This document shows, piece by piece, positions 1,572 to 22,234 of a stretch of 22,234 nucleotides of DNA; positions within the stretch are counted from its first letter, which is position 1; every line of letters starts with the position of its first letter. Under the pieces are notes generated by a model. It had not been told where the DNA came from, did no database searches, and saw only the letters and a list, made by a program, of their open reading frames with translations. Origin of the DNA: Anaerolineae bacterium (GTDB lineage Bacteria; Chloroflexota; Anaerolineae; 4572-78; J111); assembly GCA_020433835.1 (NCBI GenBank), contig JAGRBY010000042.1, forward strand, positions 1 through 22,234. Direction: 5' to 3'. Position numbers and translations under genes: made by a program.

Positions 1572-1614
1572 ATGGTATCACCGTACTGCGAATAATCTGC
1601 GAAAATGATGCGGA
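1572..1614 (-). promoter_or_regulatory. Triple heptamer-repeat promoter for the ParB-like operon
   Basis: On the minus strand there are three heptamers with an exact 11-bp period: TCCGCAT (1614-1608), TTCGCAG (1603-1597) and TTCGCAG (1592-1586). They are separated by 4-bp spacers. After exactly 8 bp comes TACCAT (1577-1572), a 4/6 match to a -10 hexamer, and no -35 consensus is present. This is the classic layout of SARP-activated promoters, in which the repeats replace the -35 box. Transcription would start near 1565 and run through the palindromic element to the ATG at 1402. Binding and the responsible protein are inferred. Confidence 0.6.
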
Positions 1615-1643
1615 AGATTTGGCGCACGCTTATGGCCCGCTTT

Positions 1644-1698
1644 TTCACCCCTGCTTCGCACACTTTTCGCAGCCGGCTATTAAGCTGTCTCTTATAGT
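1644..1698 (+). promoter_or_regulatory. Heptamer-repeat promoter for the GNAT gene
   Basis: On the plus strand, TTCGCAC (1655-1661) and TTCGCAG (1666-1672) are separated by 4 bp. A weaker copy, TTCACCC (1644-1650), lies one 11-bp period upstream. A candidate -10, TATAGT (1693-1698), begins 20 bp after the last clear repeat. That would leave room for one more degenerate repeat and about 8-9 bp, much as in the lipoprotein promoter. A TSS near 1705 would place the AAGGAGA ribosome binding site (1709-1715) just inside the transcript. TATTAA at 1678-1683 is an alternative -10. The site is back-to-back with the minus-strand site at 1572-1614. Confidence 0.55.
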
Positions 1699-1721
1699 TC
1701 TTAGTAATAAGGAGACACCGT

Positions 1722-2558
1722 ATGCCGTACAAAATTCCTTCATCCACGCAATCAACACCCATTACAAAAATCGATACCAACTTTGCAGCGCGTATAGCTT
1801 ACTTTGGCCGGTCGCCCTACGTTGATATCTTGCGTGAGAAAGAGATTATGCGGTTACGTACCAATATCTCGTTTCCGCACTATATCTTTAATGTTGTGCC
1901 TACAGCCAATTTCTCCTCACCGGAAAGCGCCCACGCCCACATTTGTAGCGTGGTTAAAGATATCCGTGCTCGCAATACAACCCTCTTTTGGTCTGTTGGC
2001 CCCAGCACAGCGCCCATAGATTTAGGCTACTATTTAGAAGCCCACGGCTTTGAACAAGCCATAACCTGTAGTGGAATGACGATTGACATGGGGCTGCTAA
2101 ATGAGGAAGCCTATGTACCGTCCGGTTTTACAGTAGAGCGGGTTATGAGTAAGGCTCGGCTTGAACAGTTTGTCGATGTGCTGGCCGAAAATTCCCATAT
2201 GCCGCGCTCTGCCGCCGCAGATCTGTATAAAATTGAAGCCAGCCTGGGCTATCACCACTATTTGCCGCGCCAGCGTTACATCGGCATTTGGCACGGTCAG
2301 CCGGTGGCTACCACCACCCTGTTCTTTGGCGGCGATGTAGTGGGCATTTACCACGTGGCTACCGTTCCCCAGGCGCGTGGCTACGGTATCGCTTCGGCCA
2401 TGTCGCTGGCGGCGCTGCAAGATGCTCGGCGCTGGGGACATCGGCAGGCAACGTTGATCGCAACACCGCAGGGACAGCCGGTCTATCGCCGTTTAGGCTT
2501 CCAACCACGTTTCGAATATAAAGTGTATGCCTGGTCTACCTGGCCTAAAGGGCATTAA
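1722..2558 (+). CDS. GNAT-family N-acetyltransferase
   Basis: A 278-residue protein expected to transfer an acyl group, usually acetyl, from CoA to an amine. The catalytic GNAT fold occupies the C-terminal half: motif A around residues 211-230 contains VPQARGYGIAS, the (Q/R)xxGx(G/A) loop that holds the CoA pyrophosphate, and motif B is GQPVYRRLGFQ near 255-266. The first 130 residues, including HGFEQAITCSGM, look like a second, degenerate GNAT-like half of the kind seen in two-domain family members. The start is supported by AAGGAGA at 1709-1715, 6 nt before the ATG. It is a single gene, divergent from the ParB-like operon and behind a heptamer-repeat promoter. The substrate cannot be predicted. 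Confidence 0.88.
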   Translation: MPYKIPSSTQSTPITKIDTNFAARIAYFGRSPYVDILREKEIMRLRTNISFPHYIFNVVPTANFSSPESAHAHICSVVKDIRARNTTLFWSVGPSTAPIDLGYYLEAHGFEQAITCSGMTIDMGLLNEEAYVPSGFTVERVMSKARLEQFVDVLAENSHMPRSAAADLYKIEASLGYHHYLPRQRYIGIWHGQPVATTTLFFGGDVVGIYHVATVPQARGYGIASAMSLAALQDARRWGHRQATLIATPQGQPVYRRLGFQPRFEYKVYAWSTWPKGH

Positions 2559-2577
2559 GATTAGCGATATGCTTACT

Positions 2578-2601
2578 TAGCCTCAGCCTTAGCCTTAGCC
2601 T
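2578..2601 (+). repeat. Four tandem hexamers (T/C)AGCCT
   Basis: TAGCCT, CAGCCT, TAGCCT, TAGCCT lie head-to-tail just after the GNAT stop codon. This is a short simple repeat with no evident function, and it could vary by slippage. The rest of the 204-bp gap up to the transporter start holds the promoter listed next and nothing else I can identify. Confidence 0.7.
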
Positions 2602-2693
2602 GCTTTTCCCCTACGCAACTGTGCCGGCTAACGTGATGCGTGCTTATCCGCTAACTGCCGCCATTAACGCCCCAAGGCCGACGGTATTAATCT

Positions 2694-2721
2694 GTAACAA
2701 TCACGGTGACGGGTATATAAT
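2694..2721 (+). promoter_or_regulatory. Sigma-70-type promoter of the transporter operon
   Basis: A perfect -10 hexamer TATAAT (2716-2721) is preceded at 16 bp by GTAACA (2694-2699), a 4/6 match to the -35 consensus. A start point near 2728 gives a leader of about 35 nt to the ATG at 2763. It makes the in-frame GTG at 2733 an unlikely start, because that codon would sit almost at the 5' end. Unlike the other promoters described here, it carries no TTCGCA repeats. Confidence 0.6.
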
Positions 2722-2762
2722 GGAGCGAATGTGTGATTCGACCGTTGGAAAGGAATATCCCT

Positions 2763-3704
2763 ATGGCAACCAAAGCTGGTGATGTGCATTCTGCGGCGTC
2801 ACCCTCTTTCCTTGAAAAGTTCTTCAATATGCCGGTGCTGCTGCTGGTGCTGGCTACGCTCTTTTGGTCGGGCAACTTTATTTTGGGGCGAGCGGTGCGG
2901 CTCGATGTGCCGCCGGTGGGGTTGGCCTTTTGGCGCTGGTTTGGCGGCAGCTTGCTGGTGAGCGGTTTTGCCTGGCCCTATCTCAAGCGCGATTGGGGCG
3001 TCATTGTGCGCCATTGGAAAATCATCACCCTCCTGGCTATTCTGGGCGTAACCACCTTTAACACGCTGATCTACACCGGCTTGCAAAGTACCACTGCTCT
3101 CAACGCGCTGTTGATGCAATCGAGTATGCCGGTGGTTATTGTGTTGATGACGTTTCTCTTTTTTCGGGAGCGGGTAAGCGTTAAGCAAGCGTTTGGCATC
3201 GGCCTGTCGCTGGTGGGGGCGCTGACAATTGTGGCCCAGGGTGATCTGGCGGTACTGCTGGGGCTGTCGCTCAATTTTGGCGATGTGTTGGTGGTGATAG
3301 CGGTCTTCTCCTACGCCGCCTATTCGGCCCTGCTGCGCCGCCGACCGGCCTTGCATCCGTTGAGCTTTCTGGCGATTACATTTATGGTGGGTACGGCCTT
3401 TTTACTGCCCTTTTACGTGTGGGAAAACGTGGCGGGCCGGGTGATGCACTTCAATACCGTCACGGCGTTGGCTGTACTGTATGTGGCCATCTTTCCCAGC
3501 ATCCTGTCCTACCTCTTTTTCAATCGCGGCGTTGAGCTGATCGGCGCGAATCAGGCCGGGTTGTTTATCCACCTTATGCCGATTTTCGGCAGTATCATGG
3601 CCATGCTCTTTCTGGGCGAACGGTTATACTGGTTTCACGGCCTCGGTATTGTGCTGATCGTGTCGGGCATTACGCTGGCTACCCGTTTACGGCGCTCATC
3701 ATGA
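2763..3704 (+). CDS. EamA/DMT-superfamily transporter
   Basis: A 313-residue inner-membrane protein of the drug/metabolite transporter superfamily, with about ten hydrophobic helices in two EamA repeats (about residues 20-150 and 165-305). The first helix carries the family-typical LFWSGNFILGRAV, followed by PPVGLAFWRW. The second repeat ends with FGSIMAMLFLGERLYWFHGLG, the typical ERL(x)3(H/Q)xxG end. Substrates in this family are small metabolites or amino acids; none can be assigned. The ATG at 2763 has GGAAAGGA at 2747-2754 with 8 nt spacing; an upstream in-frame GTG at 2733 lacks support. The stop overlaps the methyltransferase ATG (ATGA), showing a tightly coupled operon. Confidence 0.9.
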   Translation: MATKAGDVHSAASPSFLEKFFNMPVLLLVLATLFWSGNFILGRAVRLDVPPVGLAFWRWFGGSLLVSGFAWPYLKRDWGVIVRHWKIITLLAILGVTTFNTLIYTGLQSTTALNALLMQSSMPVVIVLMTFLFFRERVSVKQAFGIGLSLVGALTIVAQGDLAVLLGLSLNFGDVLVVIAVFSYAAYSALLRRRPALHPLSFLAITFMVGTAFLLPFYVWENVAGRVMHFNTVTALAVLYVAIFPSILSYLFFNRGVELIGANQAGLFIHLMPIFGSIMAMLFLGERLYWFHGLGIVLIVSGITLATRLRRSS

Positions 3705-4459
3705 CCACGGCCAATTTTTACGACCGCATGTCGCCCTTTTATCACCTCGTCTATGACGATTGGGAGGCCGCTATTAAGCGGCAAGCCGATCAACTCGACA
3801 GTTTGATCCAGGAGTTTTGGGGCGATCAGGTTTGTACGGTGCTCGATGTGTCGTGTGGCATCGGCACCCAGGCTTTGGGGCTGGCCCAACACGGCTATCG
3901 GGTGACGGCATCTGATCTATCGGCGGCGGCGATCGAGCGGGCCAAACGGGAAGCGCTTCAACGGCGCATCAAAATCGATTGGTCGGTGGCCGATATGCGC
4001 CAGGCTTACAGTCACCACCAGCGCCAGTTCGATGTGGTTATCTCGTGCGATAACGCCGTGCCCCATCTGCTGACGGATGACGATATTTTGACCGCCTTTC
4101 GCCAGTTTTACACCTGCACCAAACCGGGCGGCGGCTGTTTGATCACCGTGCGCGATTACGATCAGGTTGTGCGCGAAGGCACGCAGGTTAAGCCGCCCGG
4201 CCTGCGGGTTGAAAACGGGGTGCGCTATCTTGTTTTTCAAGTGTGGGAATTTAAGGGCGCGATTTACGACTTATCGATGTATTTTGTGCAAGACGGCGGC
4301 GAGGGCGATAGCGTGCCTACCCAGGTGATGCGCACCCAATATTACGCCGTCTCGCCGAAGACGTTGATGACTCTGCTGGCCGAAGCCGGTTTTAGCGATG
4401 TCGCCCGGCTTGATGATCGCTTTTATCAGCCCGTTATCGTGGGCCGAAAGAAAGCATAA
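3701..4459 (+). CDS. Class I SAM-dependent methyltransferase
   Basis: A 252-residue cytosolic enzyme with the Rossmann methyltransferase fold. Motif I is VLDVSCGIGTQALG (about residues 47-60), which holds the SAM methionine part. The acidic residue that binds the ribose follows in TASDLS (about 70-74), then the ADMRQAY segment (motif II region) and FDVVISCDNAVPHL (motif III/IV). An N-terminal FYDRMSPFYHLVYDDW segment resembles the substrate lid of ubiquinone/glycine N-methyltransferase-like members. The start overlaps the transporter stop by 4 nt, and the stop overlaps the next gene's ATG (TAATG). The methyl acceptor is unknown; neighbours suggest modification or export of a small molecule, but this is weak inference. 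Confidence 0.9.
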   Translation: MTTANFYDRMSPFYHLVYDDWEAAIKRQADQLDSLIQEFWGDQVCTVLDVSCGIGTQALGLAQHGYRVTASDLSAAAIERAKREALQRRIKIDWSVADMRQAYSHHQRQFDVVISCDNAVPHLLTDDDILTAFRQFYTCTKPGGGCLITVRDYDQVVREGTQVKPPGLRVENGVRYLVFQVWEFKGAIYDLSMYFVQDGGEGDSVPTQVMRTQYYAVSPKTLMTLLAEAGFSDVARLDDRFYQPVIVGRKKA

Positions 4460-5280
4460 TGTGGTATTTACGATTTCGACGTAAACTACCCTTTACTTAC
4501 CACACTATCGTGCTGACCGGCGCAGCCTCCGGTATTGGTCGCGCTTTGCTGACGCGGTGGGCCAGCCGTCCGCTGCGCATTCTGGCGGTCGATGTCGATG
4601 GCGAACGGTTAGAAAGCATCGCCCAAACCCTGGCTGACGCCCCCGCCGACATCACCATGTTGGCGCTCGACCTGTCGCAGCCGGACAGCGTAGATCGCCT
4701 CTTTGAGGTAGCGGTCAACAGGCTGGGCAGCATCGATCTCTTTATCGCCAACGCCGGCTTCGCCTATTACGAGCAGCTTGAGACGGTCGACTGGAATCGG
4801 TTAGAGCAGATTTATCGGGTTAACGTTTTTGCGCCCATCGCTGCCGCCGTCAAGATGAAGCAGCTCAACGGCTCGCGGCCTTACAAAGTGGTGCTGACCG
4901 CATCGGCGATGGCCTACCTGGCCCTGCCGGGCTACGCTGTCTACGCCGCCACCAAAGCCGCCGTCCATCGCTTTGCTGAAGGCTATCGCCTTGAACTGGA
5001 CGACCCGGATCGGCTGGTGGTGGTCTATCCCATCGCCACCCGCACCAACTTTTTCAGCGCCGCCGCCCGTCGAACCGCGCCGGTAGCCTGGCCGTCTCAG
5101 ACTGCCGAGAGGGTCGCCGCCGCGATCATTACCGGCGTCGAGCAAAATCGGCGGGCAATTTACCCATCACGCCTGTTTGTCGCCTATTTGGTGTTGGTGC
5201 GCTTCTTTCCGGCACTCGGCACCGTTGTGCAATGGCCGGATCGGTGGAAGTTTAGGCGTTGGTTGAGCGGGGGAAGATAG
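4459..5280 (+). CDS. Short-chain dehydrogenase/reductase
   Basis: A 273-residue NAD(P)-dependent oxidoreductase of the classical SDR family. The cofactor glycine motif TGAASGIG is at residues 20-27, and an acidic DVDGERL follows beta-2, favouring NAD over NADP. Also visible are the IANAG structural motif (about 93-97), catalytic Ser149 in TASAM, and Tyr162/Lys166 in YAATK. A short N-terminal extension (WYLRFRRKLPF) and a C-terminal hydrophobic stretch (FVAYLVLVRFFPALG) suggest contact with the membrane, as in several lipid- or sterol-acting SDRs. It is the third gene of the operon with the transporter and methyltransferase and overlaps the latter by 1 nt. The substrate is unknown. Confidence 0.92.
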   Translation: MWYLRFRRKLPFTYHTIVLTGAASGIGRALLTRWASRPLRILAVDVDGERLESIAQTLADAPADITMLALDLSQPDSVDRLFEVAVNRLGSIDLFIANAGFAYYEQLETVDWNRLEQIYRVNVFAPIAAAVKMKQLNGSRPYKVVLTASAMAYLALPGYAVYAATKAAVHRFAEGYRLELDDPDRLVVVYPIATRTNFFSAAARRTAPVAWPSQTAERVAAAIITGVEQNRRAIYPSRLFVAYLVLVRFFPALGTVVQWPDRWKFRRWLSGGR

Positions 5281-5531
5281 TTGCCGGTCGGAACGATGAT
5301 GTGCTTAAAGACACCGGCGGCCATCACGGTATCGCCCTGGCCGATCAGCGTTTATCTGCATCTTATAAGATGGGTTGAACCTCATAATTCTTATTCAGCA
5401 ACAAGCCTAATGCGTAGACTCTAATCTTAACGCTTTTTATTCATGAGGAAAGGGGTGGGACAGTCTCACCTGAGACGACACCGGGAATAAAAATCGACTT
5501 CGATAAACACTCAGCGCTTTTTGGGCCTCTA

Positions 5532-6422
5532 TCACAGTATCGACTGCCCCAGCAGCGAAGCCATAAGTTCTGTCGCGATGCGGGCGGTGTGGTTGCTGCG
5601 ATCTAAAATGGGGTTAATCTCGACCACATCCACTGAACTGACCCGATTGTCGTCGGCTAATATCTCCATCAACAGATGGGCCTCGCGGTAGGTTAGCCCA
5701 CCGGGAACCGGGGTTCCCACGCCGGGGGCTTCGCTGGGTTCAAGGCTGTCCATATCCAGGCTGATGTGCAGATGAGACAGATGGCTCAAGTGCGATAGCG
5801 CTTGACGGGCAACGTGAGCCATCCCCTCCGCGTCGATGTTGCGCATGGTATACACTTTTACGCCGCTTTGCCGCAGCAGCACCCGCTCTTCTCGATCCAA
5901 ATCGCGAATACCGATTAAAACCACATCTTCCGCTTTGAGCTTGGGGCCGGAGCGGCCAAGGTTGACCAGCGCATCGGCTCCGTAACCCAGCAGCGCAGCC
6001 AGGGGCATGCCGTGCAGGTTGCCGCTGGGCGATGTATCGGGCGTGTTGAAATCGCCGTGGGCATCGATCCACAGCACCCCCACCCGCCGGTCGTGGCTCA
6101 CCCCGCCGATTGTCCCCACTGCAATGGAATGATCGCCACCAATGAAAATGGGTAAGCCGCCATCTGCTATGGCTTGCTGCCCCGCTGTGTAAACTGCCTG
6201 GCAGGCATGAACTACCGCCGGTAAAAAGGTCAAACCGCCCTGGGGCGGCAGCGTGTTGCGGTCTGGAGTATCTATATTACCTTTATCTTCAACCGTGTGG
6301 CCTAGCCGTGTTAAACGCTGAACCAAACCGGCGTAGCGTAACGCACTTGGCCCCATATCAACTCCCCGCCGTGATTGTCCCAGATCCATAGGAACGCCAA
6401 TGAGACGAATAGTTTTTTCCAT
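5532..6422 (-). CDS. rocF: Arginase
   Basis: A 296-residue manganese enzyme that hydrolyses L-arginine to L-ornithine and urea in the cytosol. All metal ligands of the ureohydrolase fold are present: His98 in GGDHS, Asp120/His122/Asp124 in DAHGD, and Asp223/Asp225 in SLDMDSLEP. The sequence [11 protein letters not shown] and the [10 protein letters not shown] segment mark arginase rather than agmatinase. The ATG at 6422 gives the usual family length and N-terminus ([14 protein letters not shown]). A TTG at 6479 and an ATG at 6446 are in frame upstream but would add unrelated residues; GGAG lies 13 nt upstream, so initiation is not strongly marked. A small in-frame SHL-SHL-SHL repetition sits at residues 210-218. 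It is a monocistronic gene divergent from the lipoprotein gene. Confidence 0.93.
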
Positions 6423-6428
6423 AGGTTT

Positions 6429-6471
6429 TTCGCACTCCGTTCGCATTTTCGGTGCAGTTGACTGGTATAGT
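6429..6471 (+). promoter_or_regulatory. Heptamer-repeat promoter upstream of lipoprotein gene
   Basis: TTCGCAC (6429-6435) and TTCGCAT (6440-6446) are separated by 4 bp. A weak third unit, GGTGCAG (6451-6457), continues the 11-bp period. Exactly 8 bp later lies TATAGT (6466-6471), a good -10, with no -35 consensus. It points toward the lipoprotein gene, giving a leader of about 125 nt. The same repeats begin only 7 bp before the arginase ATG on the other strand, so a bound protein could also hinder arginase expression. Geometry is seen directly; function is inferred. Confidence 0.6.
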
Positions 6472-6491
6472 GTTTTCAACCGTGCAGTTGA
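6452..6491 (+). repeat. 10-bp direct repeats GTGCAGTTGA
   Basis: GTGCAGTTGA occurs exactly twice, at 6452-6461 and 6482-6491. The copies are 30 bp apart start to start and flank the candidate -10 TATAGT of the lipoprotein promoter. They could be a second operator or the duplicated edges of an old insertion; the sequence alone does not decide. Confidence 0.6.
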
Positions 6492-6494
6492 GGT

Positions 6495-6556
6495 GTAGGA
6501 AGTAAGGAGTAGGGAGTAGTAGACTGTTCTCTTACTCCCTTCTCCTTACTTCCTAC
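6495..6556 (+). repeat. 24-bp inverted repeat, strong hairpin in lipoprotein leader
   Basis: Left arm 6495-6518 (begins GTAGGAAGTAAGG) and right arm 6533-6556 (begins TACTCCCTTCTCC) pair at 23 of 24 positions around a 14-nt loop. No T-run follows, so it is not an intrinsic terminator. An outer 8-bp inverted repeat, TGGTATAG (6463-6470) and CTATACCA (6577-6584), encloses it, which would fit a small nonautonomous element of about 122 bp. It lies between the predicted promoter and the lipoprotein ribosome binding site, and could stabilise or regulate the mRNA. Confidence 0.8.
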
Positions 6557-6601
6557 TCCATATAAGAAACTGTAGTCTATACCAAAAGGGGAAAACATAC
6601 C

Positions 6602-7777
6602 ATGACAAAAAAACTCTCACCGATTGTCTTTGTAGTTTTTGTTTTAGCGCTGGTCACATTGGCCTGTAGCGGCAGTAAAGCTGCCCGCCAAGCTGTTGAT
6701 GTTCCCAGCTCAAGCCAAGTAGCAAAGGCCATCGACCTACCTGTAAGCGAAGAAGAAGAAACCGGCGCTACCTGGCACGAATTTTCTTCCGTAGACGGTA
6801 ACTTCACCGCCCTGTTCCCGGTTGAGCCGGAAGAGCAAGTCCAAAAGGCTCCCAATGCTATTGTTGAAACGGAAGTTCATCTTTTTATGGCCGATTTAGG
6901 CGCTGCCGCTTATATGGTTGCTTATAATGATTTGCCCGCGGCTATAACACCCGACATGGCCGACAGCGAAGCGGTTGAGTCGTCCTTCGACTCTCTGCAT
7001 GAAACCTTTTTAGCCGGTTTCGGCGGTACATCTACCCAAGAAGAAGCCATTGATCTGGCCGGCTACCCCGGTCGCCAAATTGAGTTCACCGTAGGCGATA
7101 GCGTTCTGCCGGGCGGCGGCTTCGGTACCGTTCGCGTCTATGCCGTAGCGACACGCCTATATCAAGTTGCGGCCTTAGGTACGCCCGATGCGCTCTCGAA
7201 TGAAGATGTCGACACCTTCTTGAACTCCTTTGCCCTGTTAGAAACGCCGATTAGCGAACCGGAAGCATCGATTATCACCGAAACCGACGTTGTGGCCGTA
7301 GCCGACACCATCACGCAAGCCGAGCCGGTTGAGGCCGTTGAAGCGGTTATTGAAGTTGAGCCGGTTGAGGCTGAAGCCGTAACCGAAGGTGCCGAAGTTG
7401 TTGTTGAAGAGCGTGAAGCAGTCGACACCACTACCACCATCGAGCAACCCGTTGAAGTTGTAGCCGAAGCTGCGCCCGTGGAAACCTACGAAACCGACTT
7501 TCCGCTGCCCACCGTTGTCCAAAACTTCTACATCGAAGAGACACCTTACCAGCAAGTCAACTTCCAAACTGACCTCACGTTAGATGAAGCCCTGGCCTTC
7601 TACCGCGAAGCCTTTGCGGCTCAAGGATTAACCGAACGTACACTTCTTACCAACATCGTCGAAGGCACAGCTTTCAGCTTGGTCTTCGATGGCTCAGCCA
7701 ACGGTCTGGCACTAGTTATCCAAGCTGTGCCGATCGGCGAAGTCACGAACATCAACATTCGTTACGAGCCGGTCTAA
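6602..7777 (+). CDS. Secreted lipoprotein with acidic linker, function unknown
   Basis: A 391-residue lipoprotein. The signal peptide has a Lys-rich start, a hydrophobic core and a lipobox VTLAC with lipidated Cys22. Residues about 55-215 form a globular domain that opens with a WHEFSSVDGNFTALFP segment and probably continues to FLNSFALLE; similar 'F.S..GnFsv.fP' domains occur in other bacterial lipoproteins without known function. A Glu/Val/Ala/Thr-rich linker (about 219-300) with EPVEA repeats follows, then a C-terminal domain (about 300-391) beginning DFPLPTVVQNF and including ALAFYREAFAAQGL. The start has AAGGGGA at 6586-6592, 9 nt before the ATG. It is expressed from a long leader containing a hairpin and ends at a strong terminator. 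A surface sensor or binding role is possible but unproven. Confidence 0.85.
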   Translation: MTKKLSPIVFVVFVLALVTLACSGSKAARQAVDVPSSSQVAKAIDLPVSEEEETGATWHEFSSVDGNFTALFPVEPEEQVQKAPNAIVETEVHLFMADLGAAAYMVAYNDLPAAITPDMADSEAVESSFDSLHETFLAGFGGTSTQEEAIDLAGYPGRQIEFTVGDSVLPGGGFGTVRVYAVATRLYQVAALGTPDALSNEDVDTFLNSFALLETPISEPEASIITETDVVAVADTITQAEPVEAVEAVIEVEPVEAEAVTEGAEVVVEEREAVDTTTTIEQPVEVVAEAAPVETYETDFPLPTVVQNFYIEETPYQQVNFQTDLTLDEALAFYREAFAAQGLTERTLLTNIVEGTAFSLVFDGSANGLALVIQAVPIGEVTNINIRYEPV

Positions 7778-7812
7778 ACCAAGCGATATTCTATCTTTCT
7801 TCTCCTCCCCAG

Positions 7813-7847
7813 CGGCGGCTACCGGTACAGTAGCCGCCGTTTTTTTT
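7813..7847 (+). terminator. Rho-independent terminator after the lipoprotein gene
   Basis: A perfect 10-bp stem, CGGCGGCTAC (7813-7822) with GTAGCCGCCG (7830-7839), has a 7-nt loop and is followed by eight T residues (7840-7847). It lies 35 bp after the stop codon. In the other direction no T-run follows the stem, so it serves only the plus strand. Confidence 0.95.
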
Positions 7848-7892
7848 CTACACACCGAACTATGGGGGGAGATTGCTGTTTATGAGGATTCA

Positions 7893-10800
7893 TTACTCTC
7901 TATTTAAGGATTTGTCTTGGTAGCTGCTTATGGCCTGGTGCAGTTCCTTACTGAGATCTTCAATCTTAGCCTCGGCCAATTTTAAATCCGTAACGTCAAC
8001 CACCAGGGAGACGAAGCCTTGAACTTCATCATCGACAACTTCCGGTACAAAGGTGACCAGCTCATGTTTAACTTCATCCACTGCCGGAGAAGAAATGTTG
8101 ATTTCAAATTTAACGGCTTCTCCAGCCAGCACACGATCGATATAGGGCTTTTCCTGCTCATAACGTTCTACCCCAACGATTTCTTGCAGTAACTGCCCCA
8201 TCATCTGGGTACGGGGCAACGTTGTAAGCGGTTCATACTGCCGATTGGCAAAGTGAATCCGCTGGTCGGTGTCAACGTAGGCAATTCGGGCTGGAACGTT
8301 ATCCATGACAAGCCGAAGCTGATTGGTGGCTTTTTCAGCTACCTGCTCTGCTTTTTTACGGTCGGTGATGTCGATGGCCGTACCGAGAATTTCGGCCACA
8401 GAGCCATCGGCGTTACGCTTGAAAACCGTTTCGTAGCTGACGTGCCAGCGCCATTCGCCGTTTTTATGGAGAATGCGGTATTCATGACGAAACACCTGAC
8501 CGGTTTGGTCGGCGATCAATTTGGCCCAATGCTCCGGTTGTTTGGCCCAATCGTCAGGATGCATAAGCGAACCCAGTAGCGCATCGCCCATTGCCTGAAT
8601 TTCGGCGATGGTGTAGCCTAGCTCTTTGCCTATATCGCGGTTGAGATAAAGGTTGCGCTGCTCATTGAGGCTGTAGACGTAAATCCAATTGGGGTCGGCC
8701 TCCGTAACGGTCTCGATGAAGCGAATATTCTGTTTGAGCACGGTGATATCGACCGCCAAGATAAAAATACCTTTGATACGGTCGTTTTCGACATCGGGCA
8801 GGCAAGTAACTTGCACAACAAAGGGGTCCATACTTTCGATGTTGGGAAATTCATCTTCAAACGTGACGGTTTCGCCGGCCAAGGCTCTGTCGATATAAGG
8901 TTGGCTGCGGTTAAAGAATTCCGAGCCAAGGATCTCCCAAAGCGGGCGACCCATTATTTCAACAAGAGGAAGGGTTGTTAGCCTACTATACTGCTTGTTG
9001 ACAAAACGGAAATGGTAACCGGGGCCAACACGGGCAATCCAGGCCGGAATATTGTTCGTAATGGTTCGCAGTTGCTGGGTTGTTGTTTGCAGTGCTTGCT
9101 CAGCCCGAATGCGGTCGGTGATATCAACAATAAGGGCAAAGTAGCCCTGAACTGTGTCGTTGTTTATATCGGGTACCAGGGTGACCAGTTCGTGCTCATA
9201 GGCCGCTTCCAGTACAGGTGCGCCTTGCGCCTCAAACGTAACTTCCTCACCTTTTAGAACCCGTTCAATATACGGTTTAGCCCATTCATACCGCTCAGAA
9301 CCAACAATGTCCCGAACATGGTGACCAATAATTTGCTCGCGAGGCAGGCCGGTGAGTAGTTCATAGCGTTGGTTAATAAATTGCATGCGCTGTTCATGAT
9401 CAACGTAAGAAATGCGGCCCGGTAGGTTATCCGTAATGACGCGCAGTTGGTGGGTGGTTTGCTGCAAGGCGGTCTCCATGGCTTTGCGCCGGGTGATGTT
9501 TAAGCCGGAATTAATGGTGCCGGTAATACTGCCGTTACTATCTTTCAATAGAACGTTATTCCAGGCGATGGTCCGTACTTCGCCGGTTTTGGTAATAACC
9601 TCATTTTCGTAACTGGTCAGCATCTCTTCTTCGTCGACCAGGAGGCGTTTGAAGCCGCTTTTTACTTCTTCGATGTTGTTTGGCGGCAAACAGGTATCGA
9701 ACCAGTTGCGTCCGATCAATTCAGCTTCGGTGTAGCCTAACATCTGCGCCCCTTTAGGGTTGATACGGGTAATTTCGCCACTACGATTCAACACTACCAG
9801 TAGCCCGGACATTACATCTAAATACTGTTGAGATTGGCGAACAACCTCTAAAGCTTCCAGTTCTTTACGAACGGCGATATCGACAAAGGTTAACACTAAC
9901 CCTTCAATATGACCCGACTCGGTCTGGTACGGTAGAACCCGAAGTTGATAATAGGCACCGTCGCGCATTTTGATTTCAAACTCAATCGGTTTTCCCTCAT
10001 TCAACACCGCTTGAGCCGCTTGCGTAAGATCGTCAAAACTCAGATCGATGTTGTAAGCCAGATGCTCCAGAGGCCGGCCTACATCTTGAGGCAGCAGATT
10101 AAAACTTTCAGCTATAACCGGGGTAAAAGATCGAATACGCATTTCGGCATCTAAGAATATAACCCCAATTTGGGTACTTTGCTGCAAATTTTGTAGGTCG
10201 TCATTGAGTTGAATCAATTCATCAATTTTGCGCTGGTGTTCGGCGTTTACCGTGTACAACTCTTCGTTAACCGATTGTAACTCTTCGTTGGTTGATTGCA
10301 GTTCCTCGTTAGAGGCGGTCAACTCTTCATTGGTCGATTGCAGCTCTTCATTGGTGGTTTCTACCTGTTCAATAGTCAGCTTTAGATGCTCTTTCGCATA
10401 ATCAAGCTCTTGGCGCAAGCTAACCATCTGGTCTGTAGCAACCGGCTGGGCATGCAGTTGCTCAAGCGGCTCTTGTTGAGGCTTTTCTATCTGCTCCAAG
10501 GCTACAAAGAAACGCCTTATTTGCGCGAGTGATGATTTAAGAGGCTTAATAGTAACATTTAACTTTACCCGGCCTGTTTGGGTTATGGCTTCAATATTCT
10601 TGTAGGTGATCACCTTGTTTTCCTTGGCCACACGAAGTAGACCACCTCGGACCGTTATTTGAAGATCGCCTTCAAGCATTTTTAGGGCATTGAGCGTACC
10701 AGGGCCTTTTGGGGTCTGCAAATATTGGTTACCGTTGCCCAAAATATAAAGCACGTCGTATCCTTCGTTCAATAGCAGTCCATCGGGAACGTATTCATCC

Positions 10801-12347
10801 AGCAGCGACTCAACCCACTCATCCGAGAGCCGAGGGGGTACCTGGCCTAACAAAGATGTCTGGGTTTGAGAGAGTATCGGCGGAGGCGGGGGAACAATTT
10901 TTAAGCCTTCTAACCGGATATCACGCTTTTTGCGAAAGACGCGCCAGCGGCCCAGCGAGTCGAACTCTTTGCTAAGACGGCCAATATGATCACTGGCTCC
11001 CAATAGTAGAAAACCGCCGGTAACCAGGCCAAAGTGGAAATGCGTAAGTACCTGCTGCTGCACTGTATTTTCCAGATAAATAAGAACATTGCGACAACTG
11101 ATGAGGTGCTGTTTGGTAAAAGGTGGATTTTCTAAAACGTTGTGGCGAGAAAAAGCAACTTTCTCCCGAAACTTTTTGTCAATAACGTAACCATCTTGAT
11201 AAGGCGTGAAGTGGCGTATTAACTGTTCTTCCGAAAGGTTATTTAAACTGTTGCCTTTATAAAAGCCTTGAGCCGCAATATTTAGCGATTGTTGGTGTAT
11301 ATCGGTAGCAAAAACCTGCATGTTGAGTTGTAACTGGTGTTGTTCAAAATACTCATCAAAGAGAATAGCAATAGAATAGGCTTCCTCTCCGGTAGCACAG
11401 CCGGGCACCCAGATGCGAATTTCGCCACTGGAGGCTGCCATGTCAACCAGTTCGGGGATAACGATCTTTTGTATAATTTCAAAGGCTTCAGGGTTGCGAA
11501 AGAACTGCGTTACTTCAATCAATAAGTCTCTATAGAGGATATCCAGCTCTTTGGGGTTACTCTTTAAGCGCAGTAAGTAGCTTTTTATGTCACGACTGCC
11601 GGCCAGCGTTATCCGTCGTTCGATACGACGCAAAATGGTGTTCGGCTTGTACAGTGTAAAGTCAATTTGAAATTTTTCTTCCAGCAGTTTGAAGATAACT
11701 GAAAGTTCGTTTTCTTGAGAAATATTAGCGCTTGTGCTCGGGGGTAAAGTAATCGGTTGTAGGCTATTTATATAAGACAAGATCTTATCAGGTATTTGGT
11801 CTGGCTCGGTGATAATATCTGCTTTTCCGGTTTGGATAGCATTATGCGGCATACCATCAAAATGGGCTGATTTTTTATCCTGCACCACCACCAGGCCGCC
11901 TGCCTCATGAACAGACACTAAACCGCGCGAGCCGTCGCTGCCGGTACCCGATAAAATAACCACAATGGCTCGTTTTTTGGCATCTGCAGCCAATGACTCA
12001 AAAAATGTATCGATCGGCATATGGAGGCCGCGGGTATCTTGGCGTTCGGTTAGCAAAAGCTTGTTTTCAACAATTGCCATATTTTTGTTAGGAGGAATAA
12101 GGTAAACGGTGTCGGCTTCAACAAGCATCTCATGTTCTACCCGTTTGATAGCCATCTTCGTATGACGATTCAATAGTTCGCTCATCATACTTTTGAAATC
12201 GGGCGACAAATGCTGGACAACAATAAAGGCCATACCGGTGTCGGGTGGCATATGGTCGAAAAATGCCTCCAGGGCTTCCAGGCCACCAGCCGAAGCTCCT
12301 ATACCAACGATATAGGTAGGTTGATGCCGATTATCTTGTTGTATCAT
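7893..12347 (-). CDS. CheB-CheR fusion with six PAS domains, no kinase
   Basis: A 1484-residue cytosolic signalling protein. Order: CheB-type methylesterase (about 10-195) with catalytic Ser19 (GIGASAGG), His46 (VVQHLS) and Asp138 (SGTGSDGS); CheR methyltransferase (about 210-475) with SAM motif [15 protein letters not shown] near 312-326; a long coiled coil (about 640-710) of repeated TNEELQS heptads; then six PAS units beginning near 711, 835, 959, 1085, 1206 and 1338, several ending in the typical DITDRKKAE. No receiver precedes CheB and no HisKA/HATPase follows; it ends about 25 residues after the last PAS. In this family such fusions usually continue into a histidine kinase, so output is presumably by methylation chemistry or partner contact. 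AAAGGAT lies just upstream of the ATG. It lies 85 bp downstream of the SARP-type regulator gene on the same strand. Confidence 0.93.
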
Positions 12348-12362
12348 GCATTTATCCTTTGA

Positions 12363-12425
12363 AAATTGTCTTCTTTGAACAATTTGCTGATTTGATCAGG
12401 TGGGGATAAGACAGTGACTTGTCTT
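12363..12425 (-). promoter_or_regulatory. Two inverted repeats between regulator and CheB-CheR genes
   Basis: AAATTGT (12363-12369) with ACAATTT (12379-12385) are 7-bp arms 9 bp apart, and AAGACA (12408-12413) with TGTCTT (12420-12425) are 6-bp arms 6 bp apart. Neither is followed by a T-run on the minus strand, so they are not clear terminators. They could be operators or mRNA hairpins that set the expression of the CheB-CheR gene separately from the gene before it. Confidence 0.4.
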
Positions 12426-12432
12426 GGCAAAT

Positions 12433-15414
12433 TTAAAGTTGCCTGATGAGATCACTTAAAAGAAGAGTGTAGTTTTTCTTGCGGTCCGTATCCGTTATAT
12501 CCGGCAACTGACCGGATTGTTTAAGTCGAGCAATATCTTGCTCCGCCTGTTGCTGTAGCCGATAGCTGGCCGCCGGATGACGCAAAAGCAGTGCCAGCAC
12601 CGATGCTTCCCAGTTTGTTAGAGGCACGCTGTAGTTTTCATCCATGTAAGCTCTACTCTGCACAATTCCCCGTAATGCCTCAAGGAGGGCAGGTGTGAAC
12701 TGATCAGGATAGGCTATTGTGGCAGCTTCATGGAAAAAATTTTCGGCGGTTTGGCCATCTTTTAAGTCTAACGTAACCTGGCCAAGCGCATTGAGCGTGG
12801 TAACCTGTCCCCACGCATCTCTGGTTGTGCGGCTGCGCTCTAAACTCTCTTGCAGCAGCGTTAGGGCTTCGCCGCGTTCTGTGGAGGACTCAGTAACCTG
12901 GCTGAGATAGTGCCCCAAATTTTTCAACGTATGCACTACTGCCCAGTTGTCGCCTACCTCACGGTTGATAGCCAGGCACGCCCGCAGGCCATTTTCAAGC
13001 TCGACAGACCTTCTCCGGTCGGTAGCTTGAAGTGTCAACCCTAAGGTGCTGAGCGCATAGCTGCGATAGCGGCTTTCACCCAACGCTTCTAAATCTCTTA
13101 AGCTTTGGCGCAGCAGGTGTTCGGCTGGTTCCCATTCTCCGCGATCGTAGGCGACCATTCCCAAAAGTACATTCGAGCGGGCCCCATACAGGGGATCTCC
13201 GGCCGCCGCCAATACCGACAAGCTTTCGGTCAATCGCCGGCGGGCGGTATTGTAATCGCCTTGCTGATAAGCCAAAAAGCCCTGCTGATGCAGATCTAAG
13301 CCTCTATCCCAGGTGGGGCTGGGCGCATGCAGCGCGGCCAGGCTTTTATGGTACAGCCCCGCCGCCTGCTCAAAGCGACCGAGATACCAATACTGGTTGA
13401 TATCGGCCACGGTTGTGTTTTGATCAGAGCCAATGGCGTGCTGCCAACCGGCGCGGATGTTATCAGCCTCGGCGTTTAACTCGGCCACTACTTTGGTGTG
13501 TTCGGCCTCTTGATATTCGCCGCCGCGCTGCTGCAAAAAAGTAGCGTAGTAGCGGCTGTGGCGGTCGAGCATGGTCTCTTGCTCGTCCGGATTTTGGGCC
13601 AGTTTTTCGGCAGCATATTGGCGCAGCAGCTCGTGGATGCTATATCGCCCTGAGGGACTGTGGCGTAAAAGCGATTTGTCGATGAGCGAAGCCAGAACCG
13701 CCAGCGTAACTTCGGCCACGGCTTTGGCCGCCTCTTGTTGAAACCCGCCTCGCAAAACAGCCAACCGGCGCAGCCCCTCTTGTTCTTGGGGCTGGAGTAA
13801 ACTCCACGAATGTTCGAACATGGCTCGTAAACTGCGGTGGCGCATCGGCAAATTTCTGAGCGAGCTGGACAGAAAATCAAGATTGGCCTCAATACCGGCG
13901 GCGATTTCAGCACAGGTCGACAGCCGCCGCAAACTGGCCGCCAGTTCCAGTGCCAACGGGGTGCCTTCAACCAGGCGACATATTTTGATAACGTCCGGTA
14001 GCTCATCATCACCCAAGGCATAGTCGCCGCGCACTTGACGGGCGCGCTCCATAAATAGAGCAACAGCGCTATATTTTTCAGCATTGGCGAGCGGTGATAA
14101 TGCATTCGTGTTTGAGGTTTGGAGTAGGTTTGCGGCCGGATAGGTGAGACCGGAAAGTTCAATCACCCACTCTTGGCGGAGGCTGAGGCGTTCGCGCGAG
14201 GTTACAAGCAGCTTTAAATTGGGTGTCTGCTGAAGCAATCGGTCTAAAATATGGGCCTCTTCAATAAAGTACTCAAAATTGTCCAGCACCAAGAGTGTTG
14301 GCCCGGCTTTTTGCAGGTTAATGATCAACGCATTTAACGGCGAGGCATTCCCGGCGGCAGGCAGTTGAAGTGTATTTGTGATCATCGAAATAAGCAGCTC
14401 TGATGAGCCGCCCGGGCTGCTCGATGTCGCTCCATCGGCTAAAACCGCCAGCCCGATAAGGTAAATGCCGCCCTGAAAGTTGGTGACGCCGGTTAAATTT
14501 TTGGGGTCGGTGTAGCGCGTAGCAGCCTGCAAAGCCAGCCGCGTTTTGCCGACTCCGCCCGGCCCAACCAGCGTCAGCAGCCGGCAACTGTTGTTTTCCA
14601 GATCGGCCATGAGTTGGTGCAGTTCCGTTGCGCGACCAATAAAGGCATCAGATTGGGGCGGCAGATTGTGAGGTGGTGGAGCGTCGGCCGTTTTTAAGCG
14701 CTCGTAGAGGGCGGTGGTTTCGGGGGTTGGCTCTACCCCAAACTCGTCATCCAATAGACGGCGGCAGGTTTCGTATTGAGTCAGAGCGGCGTTGCGCTGG
14801 CCGTTGCGGGCTAGCAGCGTCATCATCTGCCGGTGAGCCGACTCGCGCCACGGATCCAGTTCCAACAGCCGGTTGGCATAGGTGATGCCCTTGTCGTAGT
14901 CACCTTGATGAATGTATTGGGTGATCAAATTTTCCAGCCCATCGAGCATCAGTTCGCGAAAATGTTCGCGCTGGTTAAGCATCCATTCTTCAAACGGCAG
15001 CGAGTCTTTGACGTAGATGCCGTCCAGAAAATCGCCCTGATAGAGATCGATGGCTTTTTTCAGCGCGTTTAACTGCGCCTTCTTTTCGCCGGTTTCGATG
15101 TTGGTTTGAAAAAGTTCCGTATCGAGTTGAACCGATTCATTCGATTTAAAGGTTACCGTTTGCCGTTCAATCTCAAGAAAGGGATCAACCAGTTTACGCA
15201 GGGTTGAAAGCGATTTGGTCAAATTGCGTTTGGCCTTGCCTTCATCCATCTCGCCCCAAAATAAGTCGGCCAATACCTCACGCGTTTGGGGCTGACCGGT
15301 AACGGCCAAAAAATAAAATAGTGCTTCGGTTTTGGCTGTACCGAAACCGGTAACGGGTTTGTTGTGCAAACTGACTTGCGGTTGTCCCAAAACTTTAATG
15401 TGTAAATCCGTCAT
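12433..15414 (-). CDS. AfsR/SARP-type regulator: BTAD, NB-ARC ATPase, TPR
   Basis: A 993-residue transcription activator. An OmpR-like winged helix (about 1-95; IKVLGQPQVSL, then LADLFWGEMDEGKAKRNL) is followed by the BTAD helical domain (about 100-245, ending EFGVEPTPETTALYERL), the pair that defines SARPs. An STAND-type NB-ARC ATPase follows: Walker A GPGGVGKTR near 283-291, Walker B TLLVLDNFEY near 371-380, and LLVTSRERL near 398. Its own winged-helix part is near 520-620, and TPR-like helical repeats run from about 690 to 930. Such proteins act as ATP-gated switches that bind heptameric direct repeats overlapping the -35 region. No good ribosome binding site is visible before the ATG. It is divergent from the propeller kinase, with a matching heptamer site between them. 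Confidence 0.93.
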   Translation of the reverse strand: MTDLHIKVLGQPQVSLHNKPVTGFGTAKTEALFYFLAVTGQPQTREVLADLFWGEMDEGKAKRNLTKSLSTLRKLVDPFLEIERQTVTFKSNESVQLDTELFQTNIETGEKKAQLNALKKAIDLYQGDFLDGIYVKDSLPFEEWMLNQREHFRELMLDGLENLITQYIHQGDYDKGITYANRLLELDPWRESAHRQMMTLLARNGQRNAALTQYETCRRLLDDEFGVEPTPETTALYERLKTADAPPPHNLPPQSDAFIGRATELHQLMADLENNSCRLLTLVGPGGVGKTRLALQAATRYTDPKNLTGVTNFQGGIYLIGLAVLADGATSSSPGGSSELLISMITNTLQLPAAGNASPLNALIINLQKAGPTLLVLDNFEYFIEEAHILDRLLQQTPNLKLLVTSRERLSLRQEWVIELSGLTYPAANLLQTSNTNALSPLANAEKYSAVALFMERARQVRGDYALGDDELPDVIKICRLVEGTPLALELAASLRRLSTCAEIAAGIEANLDFLSSSLRNLPMRHRSLRAMFEHSWSLLQPQEQEGLRRLAVLRGGFQQEAAKAVAEVTLAVLASLIDKSLLRHSPSGRYSIHELLRQYAAEKLAQNPDEQETMLDRHSRYYATFLQQRGGEYQEAEHTKVVAELNAEADNIRAGWQHAIGSDQNTTVADINQYWYLGRFEQAAGLYHKSLAALHAPSPTWDRGLDLHQQGFLAYQQGDYNTARRRLTESLSVLAAAGDPLYGARSNVLLGMVAYDRGEWEPAEHLLRQSLRDLEALGESRYRSYALSTLGLTLQATDRRRSVELENGLRACLAINREVGDNWAVVHTLKNLGHYLSQVTESSTERGEALTLLQESLERSRTTRDAWGQVTTLNALGQVTLDLKDGQTAENFFHEAATIAYPDQFTPALLEALRGIVQSRAYMDENYSVPLTNWEASVLALLLRHPAASYRLQQQAEQDIARLKQSGQLPDITDTDRKKNYTLLLSDLIRQL

Positions 15415-15502
15415 AAACCGTTTTGATTCTTTCTCAACTTAGGAGACCTGTTTTCGGTGAGCCGGGGCAGACGGGTTAGCTGTTTATTGCGGTAATGGAT
15501 TT

Positions 15503-15534
15503 TTCGCACTTTTTTCGCATTGGGTTACTATACT
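15503..15534 (+). promoter_or_regulatory. Heptamer-repeat promoter of the propeller hybrid kinase
   Basis: TTCGCAC (15503-15509) and TTCGCAT (15514-15520) are separated by 4 bp and end exactly 8 bp before TATACT (15529-15534), a 5/6 match to the -10 consensus. No -35 hexamer is present at 17 bp. This is the cleanest copy of the motif and lies in the 173-bp gap between the SARP-type regulator and the kinase gene, so the regulator could control its divergent neighbour and possibly itself. A start near 15541 gives a leader of about 47 nt. Confidence 0.65.
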
Positions 15535-15587: not shown

Positions 15588-18500
15588 ATGAAAACGCTCG
15601 CTAAATTTTTCTTGATTATTGCCATAATGATGGCTTTAACGCCCCCTGTTACCGCTCAAACCGGCCCTGATGCCCTTAAATTCTTCCCGGTTGTGGTAAA
15701 AAGTGGTAATACGGTGACAGAGATATCTGTGTTGGCCATGCTGCAAGACTCCAAAGGGTTTATGTGGTTTGGTACCCACGACGGTTTGCACCGTTTTGAC
15801 GGCTACACTTTGGAGTCGTTTCAGAACGATGTCGACGATCCTTACAGTCTTAGCGCCAACAGCGTTCGTGCTCTGCACCTGGCGGATGATGATGTGTTGT
15901 GGATCGGCACCTGGGGCGGCGGCTTGAATCGGTATGATCCCACAACCGGCCAATTCACGCGCTACCAGCCTCACGCCGACGATGCTAACAGCCTCAGCGA
16001 TGACCTGGTGGTATCGATTGCCGCAGATGCCACCGGATATTTATGGCTGGCTACCAATCAAGGCGGCCTCAATAAATTTGATCCCACAACTGAAAAGTTT
16101 ACGCACTATCAGCACGACCTGGACGATCCCGCTAGTTTGCTCAGCAACGTCGTCAACGCGGTTATCGTCGACTCCAGCGGGTTAGTGTGGGCCGGTACGG
16201 ACGATGGTCTTGATCGCTTTGATCCGACCACCGGGCAGTTTGCCCGCGACATCGATGCGCTTACTGCACTGCGCGGAATGCATATTATAGCGCTTTATGA
16301 AGATCAAGCTGGTTTGATCTGGGCCGGCACGGAGCGCGATGGCCTTGTTCGACTCGATCCGGCCAGTGGGCAGGTTACAGTTTATCAGCATGACCCTGCT
16401 GATCCTGGCAGCTTGGGTGATGATTTTGTCATGAGTTTGCTTGAGGATCAAACCGGAGCGTTTTGGGTGGGTACCCGTAACAGCGGCCTCAATCTGTTTG
16501 ACCCGGCTACGGAACAGTTTACCCACTATGGCTATGAAGAGGATAATCCTTATTCAATAGCATCTAATCTTGTAATTTCGCTCTACGAAGATCGAACCGG
16601 AGCGGTGTGGGTTAGTGCCGGGGGACTAAGTCGCCTTGATCGGGCCAAAGTAAAGTTCAAAACCCATTATCGGCATGAGGAGGGTAACCCTAATAGTTTA
16701 GGCAGTAACACAGTTTGGCCTATTTTTGAAGATAGCGACGGCATTGTGTGGATTGGTCTTAACGGTGCTGGCCTAGACCGTATCGATCGCACCACCGGCG
16801 AGGTTACCCATTACCGCCACAATCCCGATGATCCCACCAGCCTCAGCAGCGATCGCGTTTGGTCGCTGTTTGAGGACTCGCACGGTGATTTTTGGGTGGG
16901 GACTTTTTTAGGCGGATTAAACAAAATGGATCGCCAGACCGGCCGGTTCACCACCTACCAGCACGATCCGGATGATCCGACGAGTCTCAGTAACGACATC
17001 GTCATGGATATTTTTGAGGATAGCCACGGTACTCTGTGGATTGGCAGCGGTGATGGGTTGAACCGCTATGATCGCGAGGCGGAACAGTTTACAAGCTACC
17101 TGGTTGATCCCAACAACCCCTATGGTCCCTCTAATGCCACGATTCGTGCAATTCACGAGGATTCAGAGGGGATGCTGTGGATTGCCACCATTGCCGGTGG
17201 CATCAACCGCTTCGATCCTCAAACTGAGCGTTTTACGCCCTATACGCACAACCCCGACGACTCTACCAGTATTAGCCATGACAGCATCTTTGCTATTCAT
17301 GAAGACGATGCGGGTAATTTGTGGATTGGTACGGAGGGGGGCCTTAATAAATTTGATCGGGAAACGGAACAATTTACTGCCTATCGTAAAAAACATGGCT
17401 TACCCAACGATGTTGTGTATGCCATTTTGGAAGATGCTGAAGGTAACTTATGGCTGAGTACCAACGAGGGCCTTTCGAAATTTAATCCCGCCACCGAAAC
17501 TTTTCGTAACTACGATAGAAGTGACGGTTTGCAACATGACGAGTTTAATATCTTTAGCTACTTCCAAAATTCTGACGGCGAGATGTTTTTTGGGGGCGTA
17601 AATGGCTTCAACGCCTTTTATCCATCCGAAATTAAGGACTATGCTATTATGCCGCCTATCGTCATTACCGATTTGCGGCTGTTTAATGAACCGGTGCCGA
17701 TTGGGGGCGACTCGCCGCTTCAGCAGCCGATTGAAGTTACCAAGGAACTGGAGTTTGAGCGCGACGATTATATCTTCTCGTTTGAAGTAGCGGCGCTCGA
17801 TTACAACGGGCCGGACAAAATAAAATATGCCTTCATGCTGGAAGGTTTTGACCAGGATTGGAACTATCGCGATGCGAACAACCGCTTTGTGACCTATACC
17901 AATTTGCCGCCGGGAAGCTATACATTTCACGCCAAGGCCACCAACAGCGATGGTTTATGGAGCGAAACAGAGCGAACCCTATCGCTTAATATTGTGCCGA
18001 CCTGGTGGCAAACCAATTGGTTTAGAGGGGGTGTTGGTTTAATCGGGGTTGGGATAGTGCTGTTGCTGCTGCGGCAGAGATCGATTATTAACGAGATGCA
18101 GAAGCAGCAGCTTCGTGAGCAAATTGAATCGCGAACGCGCGATTTGGTCAAGAGCAATGAGCAGCTTCTCAAAGAAATTGTGGAACGCGAAAAGGTGGAA
18201 GAGGCACTGCGCCAGCGTGAAAGCCGGACCCGCGCTTTGTTAAACGCCATACCGGACCTGATGTTGAATATGAGCCGCGAAGGTGACGTTTTAGAATTCG
18301 AGGCCTTGCAGGCCGGTGTCTACGGCGATCCGGATAGCCTTGTCGGCAGAAATATTCGTGATATTATGCCGCCCCACCTGGGCGAGTTGGCCATGCAGCA
18401 AATTACCAAAACCCTTGAAACCGGCGAGATGGCGACGGTAGAATACCAGTTACGCTCTCGCGAGGGTGTCTTGGAAGATTTTGAGACGCGTATGGTTGTT

Positions 18501-21146: not shown

Positions 21147-21258
21147 AACTATAGAGACAGGCTAAAATCTGGCCTGATAAAGCGTCGAAATTTACTTTTG
21201 CCTGGCCGATTACTGTCTATCACCTTTTTAATTGATGGTCTCGTTGAGGAGAAACTTA

Positions 21259-22234
21259 ATGACCAATCCAGCCACCGAATCCTATATCCAAACCAAAGGC
21301 GACATCTTGATTGTTGATGACACGCTGCCCAACTTGCGCGTGCTATCCAGTATGTTAACGGAGCAAGGTTATGAAGTGCGCGGTGCACCCAACGCCCAAA
21401 TGGCCTTGATGATTATCGAAGCCGAGCCGCCGGATTTGATTCTTCTCGATATCAATATGCCTGGCATGAATGGATATGAACTGTGCGAGGCGATCAAAGC
21501 CAAGCCCGGCAGCAAAGATATTCCGGTGATTTTTATAAGTGCCCTGGATGAAGTGTTGGATAAAGTTAAGGCTTTTTCGGTTGGTGGGGTAGACTACATT
21601 ACCAAACCTTTCCAAATTGCCGAGGTATTGGTGCGGGTGCGTACGCACCTGACCATCCGTACATTGCAGCAGCAACTTCAACAAACCAATGCTGATATAC
21701 AACAAGCCAATGCCGACCTGCAAAAAGCCAACATCGAGCTTTTAGAGGCTAATTTGGCCCTGCAAGCCAGCAATCAAGAGTTAGATGCATTTGCTCGCAC
21801 CGTGGCCCACGATCTCAAAAACCCATTCTCGTCCATCGTCGGCGTGACGGATCGACTGAAGGATGATCTGGCTCAACTAGAAAGCGAAAATCCATCGACG
21901 CTGAAGTTGCTGGAACAGATAGAGCATGGCGGGCAGCAGGGGGTTAAGGTTATCGATAATTTGCTGTTACTGGCCTGGGTACGCAAAGGTGAGGTTGAGG
22001 TTAAACCGGTTGATATGGCCGGCGTGGTGAGTCGGGTTCAGGAAAGTTTGGCTGATATGATCCAGTCCTCTCAAGGTGAGTTAATTGTGCCGTCTCGGTG
22101 GCCGGTAGCGTTAGGATACGAACCCTGGCTAGAGGAAGTATGGGCCAACTACATCAGCAACGGTCTGAAGTTTGGGGGTGAGCCGCCCCGCCTAGAGTTA
22201 GGAGCCACCCCCCTGGCCAGTGGTCAGGTTCGTT
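21259..22234 (+). CDS. Receiver-histidine kinase, 3' end cut by window
   Basis: A partial reading frame of 325 codons, open to the end of the window. It starts at an ATG with GAGGAG at 21246-21251. An N-terminal receiver (about 14-130) shows ILIVDD, phospho-Asp64 in LLDINMPGMNG and Lys in YITKPF. A coiled coil with QQANADLQKAN-type repeats (about 135-175) leads to a HisKA-like domain with His184 in VAHDLKNP, then the start of an ATPase domain with N-box WANYISNGLKF. This receiver-first kinase layout is typical of proteins phosphorylated by, or relaying from, an upstream hybrid kinase. It follows the propeller kinase by 112 bp on the same strand, so the two probably work together. The intervening gap shows no clear terminator or promoter. 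Confidence 0.93.
   Translation, partial: MTNPATESYIQTKGDILIVDDTLPNLRVLSSMLTEQGYEVRGAPNAQMALMIIEAEPPDLILLDINMPGMNGYELCEAIKAKPGSKDIPVIFISALDEVLDKVKAFSVGGVDYITKPFQIAEVLVRVRTHLTIRTLQQQLQQTNADIQQANADLQKANIELLEANLALQASNQELDAFARTVAHDLKNPFSSIVGVTDRLKDDLAQLESENPSTLKLLEQIEHGGQQGVKVIDNLLLLAWVRKGEVEVKPVDMAGVVSRVQESLADMIQSSQGELIVPSRWPVALGYEPWLEEVWANYISNGLKFGGEPPRLELGATPLASGQVR

Follow-up and report, generated by a model that had tools for sequence, protein, structure and literature searches.

The stretch of DNA analysed here (the window) comprises 22,234 nucleotides from an Anaerolineae bacterium of the phylum Chloroflexota (contig JAGRBY010000042.1), and the question it raises is which protein reads a hexamer pair, TTCGCA-N5-TTCGCA, that recurs in front of four of its genes. 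The first-pass annotation had located four exact copies, at 1603-1587 on the minus strand and at 1655-1671, 6429-6445 and 15503-15519 on the plus strand, and had proposed a SARP-family regulon; the copies lie where it had put them, and its SARP interpretation is in large part borne out. In 100 dinucleotide shuffles of the window the mean was 0.01 exact pairs and the maximum one. The expectation of 0.003 given earlier holds for equal base composition; the shuffles put it at 0.01. Allowing up to two mismatches gave 8 sites against 3.18 expected, a count reached by one shuffle in 100, and two overlapping pairs among these 8 hold the third repeats TCCGCAT and TTCACCC that had been reported at the 11-bp period. 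From these sequences and the comparisons below we take the four repeats, with good confidence, for operators of a SARP-type activator, whose most likely identity is the BTAD-ATPase-TPR product of the gene at 12433-15414.

Each copy forms part of an array of heptamers separated by 4-bp spacers and followed by a -10-like hexamer, which was scored by the consensus TAnnnT. Array A (1572-1614, minus strand) reads TCCGCAT-4-TTCGCAG-4-TTCGCAG, then 8 bp and TACCAT, and is directed at its predicted target, a gene for a 174-amino-acid (aa) protein without Pfam match (878-1402, minus). Array B (1644-1686, plus) reads TTCACCC-4-TTCGCAC-4-TTCGCAG, 8 bp, TAAGCT, towards the predicted target of a GNAT acetyltransferase gene (1722-2558, plus), and array C (6429-6471, plus) reads TTCGCAC-4-TTCGCAT-4-GGTGCAG, 8 bp, TATAGT, towards a predicted target encoding a lipoprotein-like protein of 391 aa without Pfam match at E 0.001 (6602-7777, plus). 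Array D (15503-15534, plus) consists of TTCGCAC-4-TTCGCAT, 8 bp, TATACT, and its predicted target is a hybrid two-component sensor gene (15588-21146, plus; Reg_prop, Y_Y_Y, GAF, HisKA, HATPase_c and receiver domains). The 8-bp distance noted in the first pass was found in all four arrays, if the degenerate third repeat of array C (GGTGCAG, 6451-6457) is counted. The first hexamer could be read as a -35 element only with a 20-bp spacer, and this reading was set aside by inspection. The arrays occupy three divergent intergenic gaps and each is directed at one gene, as had been claimed. For the 6429 copy this depends on the start of the neighbouring arginase gene, which the mechanical list of open reading frames (ORFs) sets at a TTG at 6479, placing the copy inside arginase; by inspection, arginase more likely starts at an in-frame ATG at 6422.

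Counterparts of all four promoters are present in the nearest relative, the metagenome-assembled genome HKST-UBA12 (G001; 9.8 Mb, fragmented). TACCAT and TAAGCT are poor -10 elements; the corresponding hexamers in G001 are TATTGT for A and TATGCT for B (both on contig C308), TATAGT for C (C471) and TATATT for D (C748), and C471 retains the third repeat of array C together with TATAGT. The four counterpart promoters, found on both sides via the exact motif, keep their arrays while the flanks differ. Between array A and the 174-aa gene, the window carries at 1419-1531 an inverted repeat resembling a miniature inverted-repeat transposable element (ACTTACGCA ... TGCGTAAGT), which is not seen in the G001 counterpart. 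Another inverted repeat, at 6495-6556 (GTAGGAAGTAAGGAG ... CTCCTTACTTCCTAC), separates array C from the lipoprotein-like gene and is likewise unmatched in the G001 counterpart.

Genome-wide counts were made in G001, which contains 8 exact pairs against 1 in the reversed control, a control that provides no flat background because the reversed pattern is the commoner over all periods (52 pairs vs 22). Across periods 6-36, 8 of the 22 exact TTCGCA pairs fall at period 11 and no other period holds more than 2, an excess with P of about 4e-8 (Poisson, against the other 30 periods). In the comparison of intergenic with coding copies that had been named beforehand, 7 of the 8 period-11 pairs lie outside ORFs of at least 100 aa, the eighth under a 150-aa ORF on the other strand, and 11 of 13 pairs at other periods lie inside such ORFs (a fourteenth, at period 22 and part of a triple array, was left out of this count). 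The distance to the -10 element, also suggested as a check, was tallied for 41 of the 43 G001 sites with up to one mismatch. TAnnnT stands 8 bp downstream at 5/8 exact and 6/33 one-mismatch sites, and 19 bp (11+8) downstream at 1/8 and 4/33, these last including upstream pairs that belong to triple arrays; no other offset from 0 to 20 bp occurs at more than one site. Both outcomes in G001 favour the first-pass interpretation. With up to one mismatch allowed, TAnnnT is correctly placed at 12 sites, at 8 bp in 11 of them and at 19 bp in the other; these 12 support the proposed SARP regulon at the level of sequence, which is the level at which that claim stands. By Pfam, the further predicted targets in G001 are two Ser/Thr kinases, a styrene-monooxygenase-like protein, a DinB-like protein, a GNAT, a Kelch, a WD40 and a DUF4352 lipoprotein; the kinase site on C825 and the WD40 site on C837 lack TAnnnT at 8 bp, the lipoprotein site on C301 has TAAAAG there, and C367, one of the 12, has no ORF of 60 aa within 500 bp.

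By definition, SARP target promoters carry direct repeats spaced 11 or 22 bp apart (PMC10936776). The window promoters show repeats 11 bp apart, the 3' repeat standing 8 bp from a TAnnnT consensus, which is the layout published for AfsR and other SARPs, and it is very likely that they are operators with SARP geometry. The BTAD gene adjoining array D (12433-15414, minus) stands back to back with the array D promoter, and the first-pass description of it as a SARP/BTAD-ATPase gene agrees with the domains found: its 993-aa product begins with an OmpR-type winged helix-turn-helix (wHTH) followed by a BTA domain (about 2-246), as in large SARPs, and continues into a STAND/NB-ARC-like ATPase and C-terminal TPRs. 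AAA_16 and TPR_12 scored above cut-off, and the predicted structural model gave NB-ARC and TPR matches. The protein is 87% identical to one in G001, and to AfsR, the large SARP of Streptomyces coelicolor that binds the afs box of the afsS promoter, it is 28% identical over 237 aligned residues. Its recognition-helix residues T66, K67 and T71 correspond to AfsR positions 87, 88 and 92, so that the base-contacting T88 and R92 of AfsR are replaced by K67 and T71, and the heptamer is TTCGCAN. Against the AfsR equivalog model (NCBIfam NF053617) it scored 95.6 bits, far below the cut-off of 1430. PimR and other SARP-LAL regulators likewise join a SARP domain to a large C-terminal half and use direct repeats of heptamers, in twos or threes with 4 bp between them (PMC5930380). 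The operator of PimR, which is TGGCAAG...CGGCAAG-like, lies clear of the -35 region (PMC5930380), and the C-terminal half is of the LAL type. EmbR of Mycobacterium tuberculosis ends in an FHA domain (PMC10936776), whereas the window protein ends in a STAND ATPase and TPRs. The BTAD and sensor-kinase genes are flanked by genes for a CheB-CheR-PAS protein (7893-12347) and a receiver-HisKA protein (21232-22233), making this a signalling-rich neighbourhood.

That the neighbouring BTAD protein binds the arrays is likely, and its closest relatives bear on this point. The protein nearest to it outside G001, L041 of genome G011, has in its own divergent promoter TTCGCTT-TTCGCAC-GGCGCAT-TTCGCAG, 8 bp and TACAGT before a GNAT gene, an array noticed by eye first and then caught by a wider detector. 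A homologous GNAT gene of G001 (C491), whose product is 60% identical to the GNAT beside L041, is preceded by TTTGCAC-TTCGCAG, 8 bp, TATACT. This gene and the BTAD gene of G001 are on separate contigs, although in so fragmented an assembly the two may still be linked; that a target retains the site at a distance from the regulator gene speaks for a single regulator common to both. In a clade of six proteins (window, L041, L043, L065, L094 and L100; support 99/93) all six have nnnGCA heptamers. We consider it unlikely that the binder is instead a paralogous BTAD regulator of this clade, such as the two encoded on G001 C299, acting alone or with the window protein. The C299 paralogues have the T87 helix as well, the divergent promoters beside their genes carry TTTGCAT/TTTGCAC repeats, and G001 has 39 BTAD matches; yet their own repeats are TTTGCA and not TTCGCA, the TTCGCA form is found in the promoter of L041, and array D adjoins the gene of the window protein, as does its counterpart in G001. 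In L094 and L100, the two C299 loci, the last copy of the TTTGCA repeats is TTTGGAG before TAAGGT, and the two may represent a near-duplicate system.

The link between regulator and array was surveyed beside 106 distinct BTAD genes, a set picked by similarity to the window protein together with the G001 loci (31/106), which because of this choice is no random sample. From 113 sequences, one without a match, two starting too late in the protein, four duplicates and two with less than 170 bp upstream were dropped. A period-11 heptamer pair that points away from the BTAD gene and is followed by TAnnnT after 8 bp was found in 47 of 104 upstream regions (37/104, 46/106 and 47/104 by detector version), against 2-7 regions at other periods, 9 for period-11 arrays facing towards the BTAD gene, and a mean of 1.85 and a maximum of 5 over 40 rounds of dinucleotide shuffling. 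These 47 loci come from 30 Anaerolineae genomes and the window, and their heptamers are diverse (TTGACGT, ATGACGT, TAAACGA, CAAATGA, GGAACGA, TGAACGT, CTGATAG, TTTGCAT, CTCGCAT and TTCGCAC among them). Searching 10 genomes for TGACG arrays by pattern alone gave 9 sites against 1 for the reversed control, and a BTAD gene adjoins the array at all 9; six of the loci were already known, the genomes having been chosen for them, and three were new. At 20 of the 106 BTAD loci (for example L061, L053 and L204) a small protein of about 60-95 aa is divergently encoded, with the signature YxSYLLRLW ... WRxSLEDPxTGERxGFAxL; members occur at 13 of the 47 array loci, and none of three tested had a Pfam match over cut-off.

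Direct repeats of 11 bp that cover the -35 region are also typical of OmpR/PhoB-type regulators; for PhoB, the -10 element follows after about 10 bp. A response regulator of this type as the binder appears very improbable. G001 does contain 59 Trans_reg_C matches, 6 of them in frames also holding BTAD, and two-component genes adjoin array D. However, the 29 Trans_reg_C genes of G001 that were tested showed no divergent array and two arrays in the same direction, not above other periods; the -10 distance is 8 bp here; and the heptamers covary with the BTAD recognition helix, as described next.

Residues of the helix are given in AfsR numbering. The automatic calls, which ignore kinship, associate an ACG core with R87 (26/35 vs 0/12, P 6e-6) and G1 with R92 (5/5 vs 3/42, P 4e-5); they score the window row as a GCA miss, a T-run beside TTCGCA mimicking a repeat, and this register was corrected by hand for the covariation ranking and the pair tests. 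Among 364 residue-base pairs in 30 proteins of less than 55% identity, 87-5 ranked first, 88-3 second, 92-1 fifth and 87-6 sixth, as predicted from AfsR, and among 40 proteins of less than 70% identity 87-6 ranked first and 92-1 fourth. Proteins with similar helices tend to have similar heptamers (r 0.23, P 0.004, n=30), whereas for the SARP domain without the helix this does not hold (r 0.04, P 0.34, n=30), and similarity over the whole SARP domain showed no significant tracking of the heptamer.

Several results weigh against the explanation by a SARP-type activator. At the survey threshold 57 of the 104 BTAD regions have no array, nor is the spacing settled by the survey: where a good -10 element is required, offsets of 7-11 each gave 16-21 regions, alike because the repeats extend beyond 7 bp. 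In the Fisher counts related proteins enter as if they were independent, and GCA was called for one R87 protein (L221) too. Non-contact pairs that were not predicted rank high, namely 79-2 (third) and 109-1 (fourth) at n=30, and at n=40 84-3 and 50-3, between 87-6 and 92-1, and also 75-1. The 8-bp spacer correlates as well (r 0.2-0.3 with the SARP domain and 0.15-0.22 with the helix, computed with the mis-registered window row). With phylogeny controlled, the four supported R87 pairs were on average 2.5 in the same and 0.1 in the opposite direction, and R92-G1 gave 3/3, pairs that agree in direction and are too few for significance, which cannot be reached with fewer than 6 changing pairs. The GCA link rests on one clade; the predicted model of the window protein has a predicted TM score (pTM) of 0.45, which leaves its domain arrangement unsure; and the 39 BTAD and 59 Trans_reg_C matches of G001 mean that other binders exist, with cross-talk possible because two of the 39 are the clade members with TTTGCA arrays. 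Outside G001 the motif does not stand out, and no TTCGCA regulon emerged in other relatives or in the class: 40 other relatives gave 6 pair sites against 18 in the control, and a scan of 396 class genomes for the motif with its -10 element gave 5 occurrences in G001 and one apiece in two more genomes, the long pattern giving 2 against 4 controls in the 395 without G001. Within G001, two mismatches with a -10 element gave 22 sites against 23 in the reversed control, and one mismatch without a -10 element 43 against 52. This last, background-level count, along with the inverted repeats near arrays A and C, is what speaks for the repeats being the product of chance or of mobile-element spread, an explanation that we regard as next to negligible given the 0.01 expected in the window, the arrays kept in four counterpart promoters amid differing flanks, and the fixed distance to TAnnnT, a conserved spacing that already disfavours such an origin.

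For the SARP-type activator, the following course may be envisaged. The N-terminal wHTH and BTA domains would sit next to one another on TTCGCAN heptamers spaced by one turn of the helix and cover the -35 region, the array ending 8 bp before the -10 element; the bound protein would then recruit RNA polymerase, as AfsR does, and thereby activate rather than repress. The STAND ATPase and TPR part would probably gate the activator by a signal, with ATP as a presumed part of the switch. Whereas the arrays, their conserved geometry, the AfsR-like architecture and the statistical link of BTAD genes to arrays can be read from the DNA, the binding by the window protein, activation and ATP gating that we propose are predictions from it.

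SARPs have been studied as antibiotic switches of actinomycetes, and among the titles listed by searches of a literature that mostly lacked subscription journals there was no work on SARP operators in Chloroflexota. The kind of system is already known; new are its phylum, its heptamer and the diversity from one regulator to the next. Anaerolineae probably harbour many SARP-type STAND regulators that form a large set and label themselves, each gene backing a promoter with its own heptamer array in AfsR geometry, in which helix residues 92, 88 and 87 would read heptamer positions 1, 3 and 4-6. The AfsR promoter layout beside BTAD genes of 30 Anaerolineae genomes, with its many heptamers, amounts to a natural experiment in DNA-binding specificity. 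If the proposed reading is true, the DNA preference, and then the regulons, of a large share of these regulators would be readable from sequence, the TTCGCA protein being one case, and what many BTAD-STAND proteins regulate would become testable one regulator at a time.
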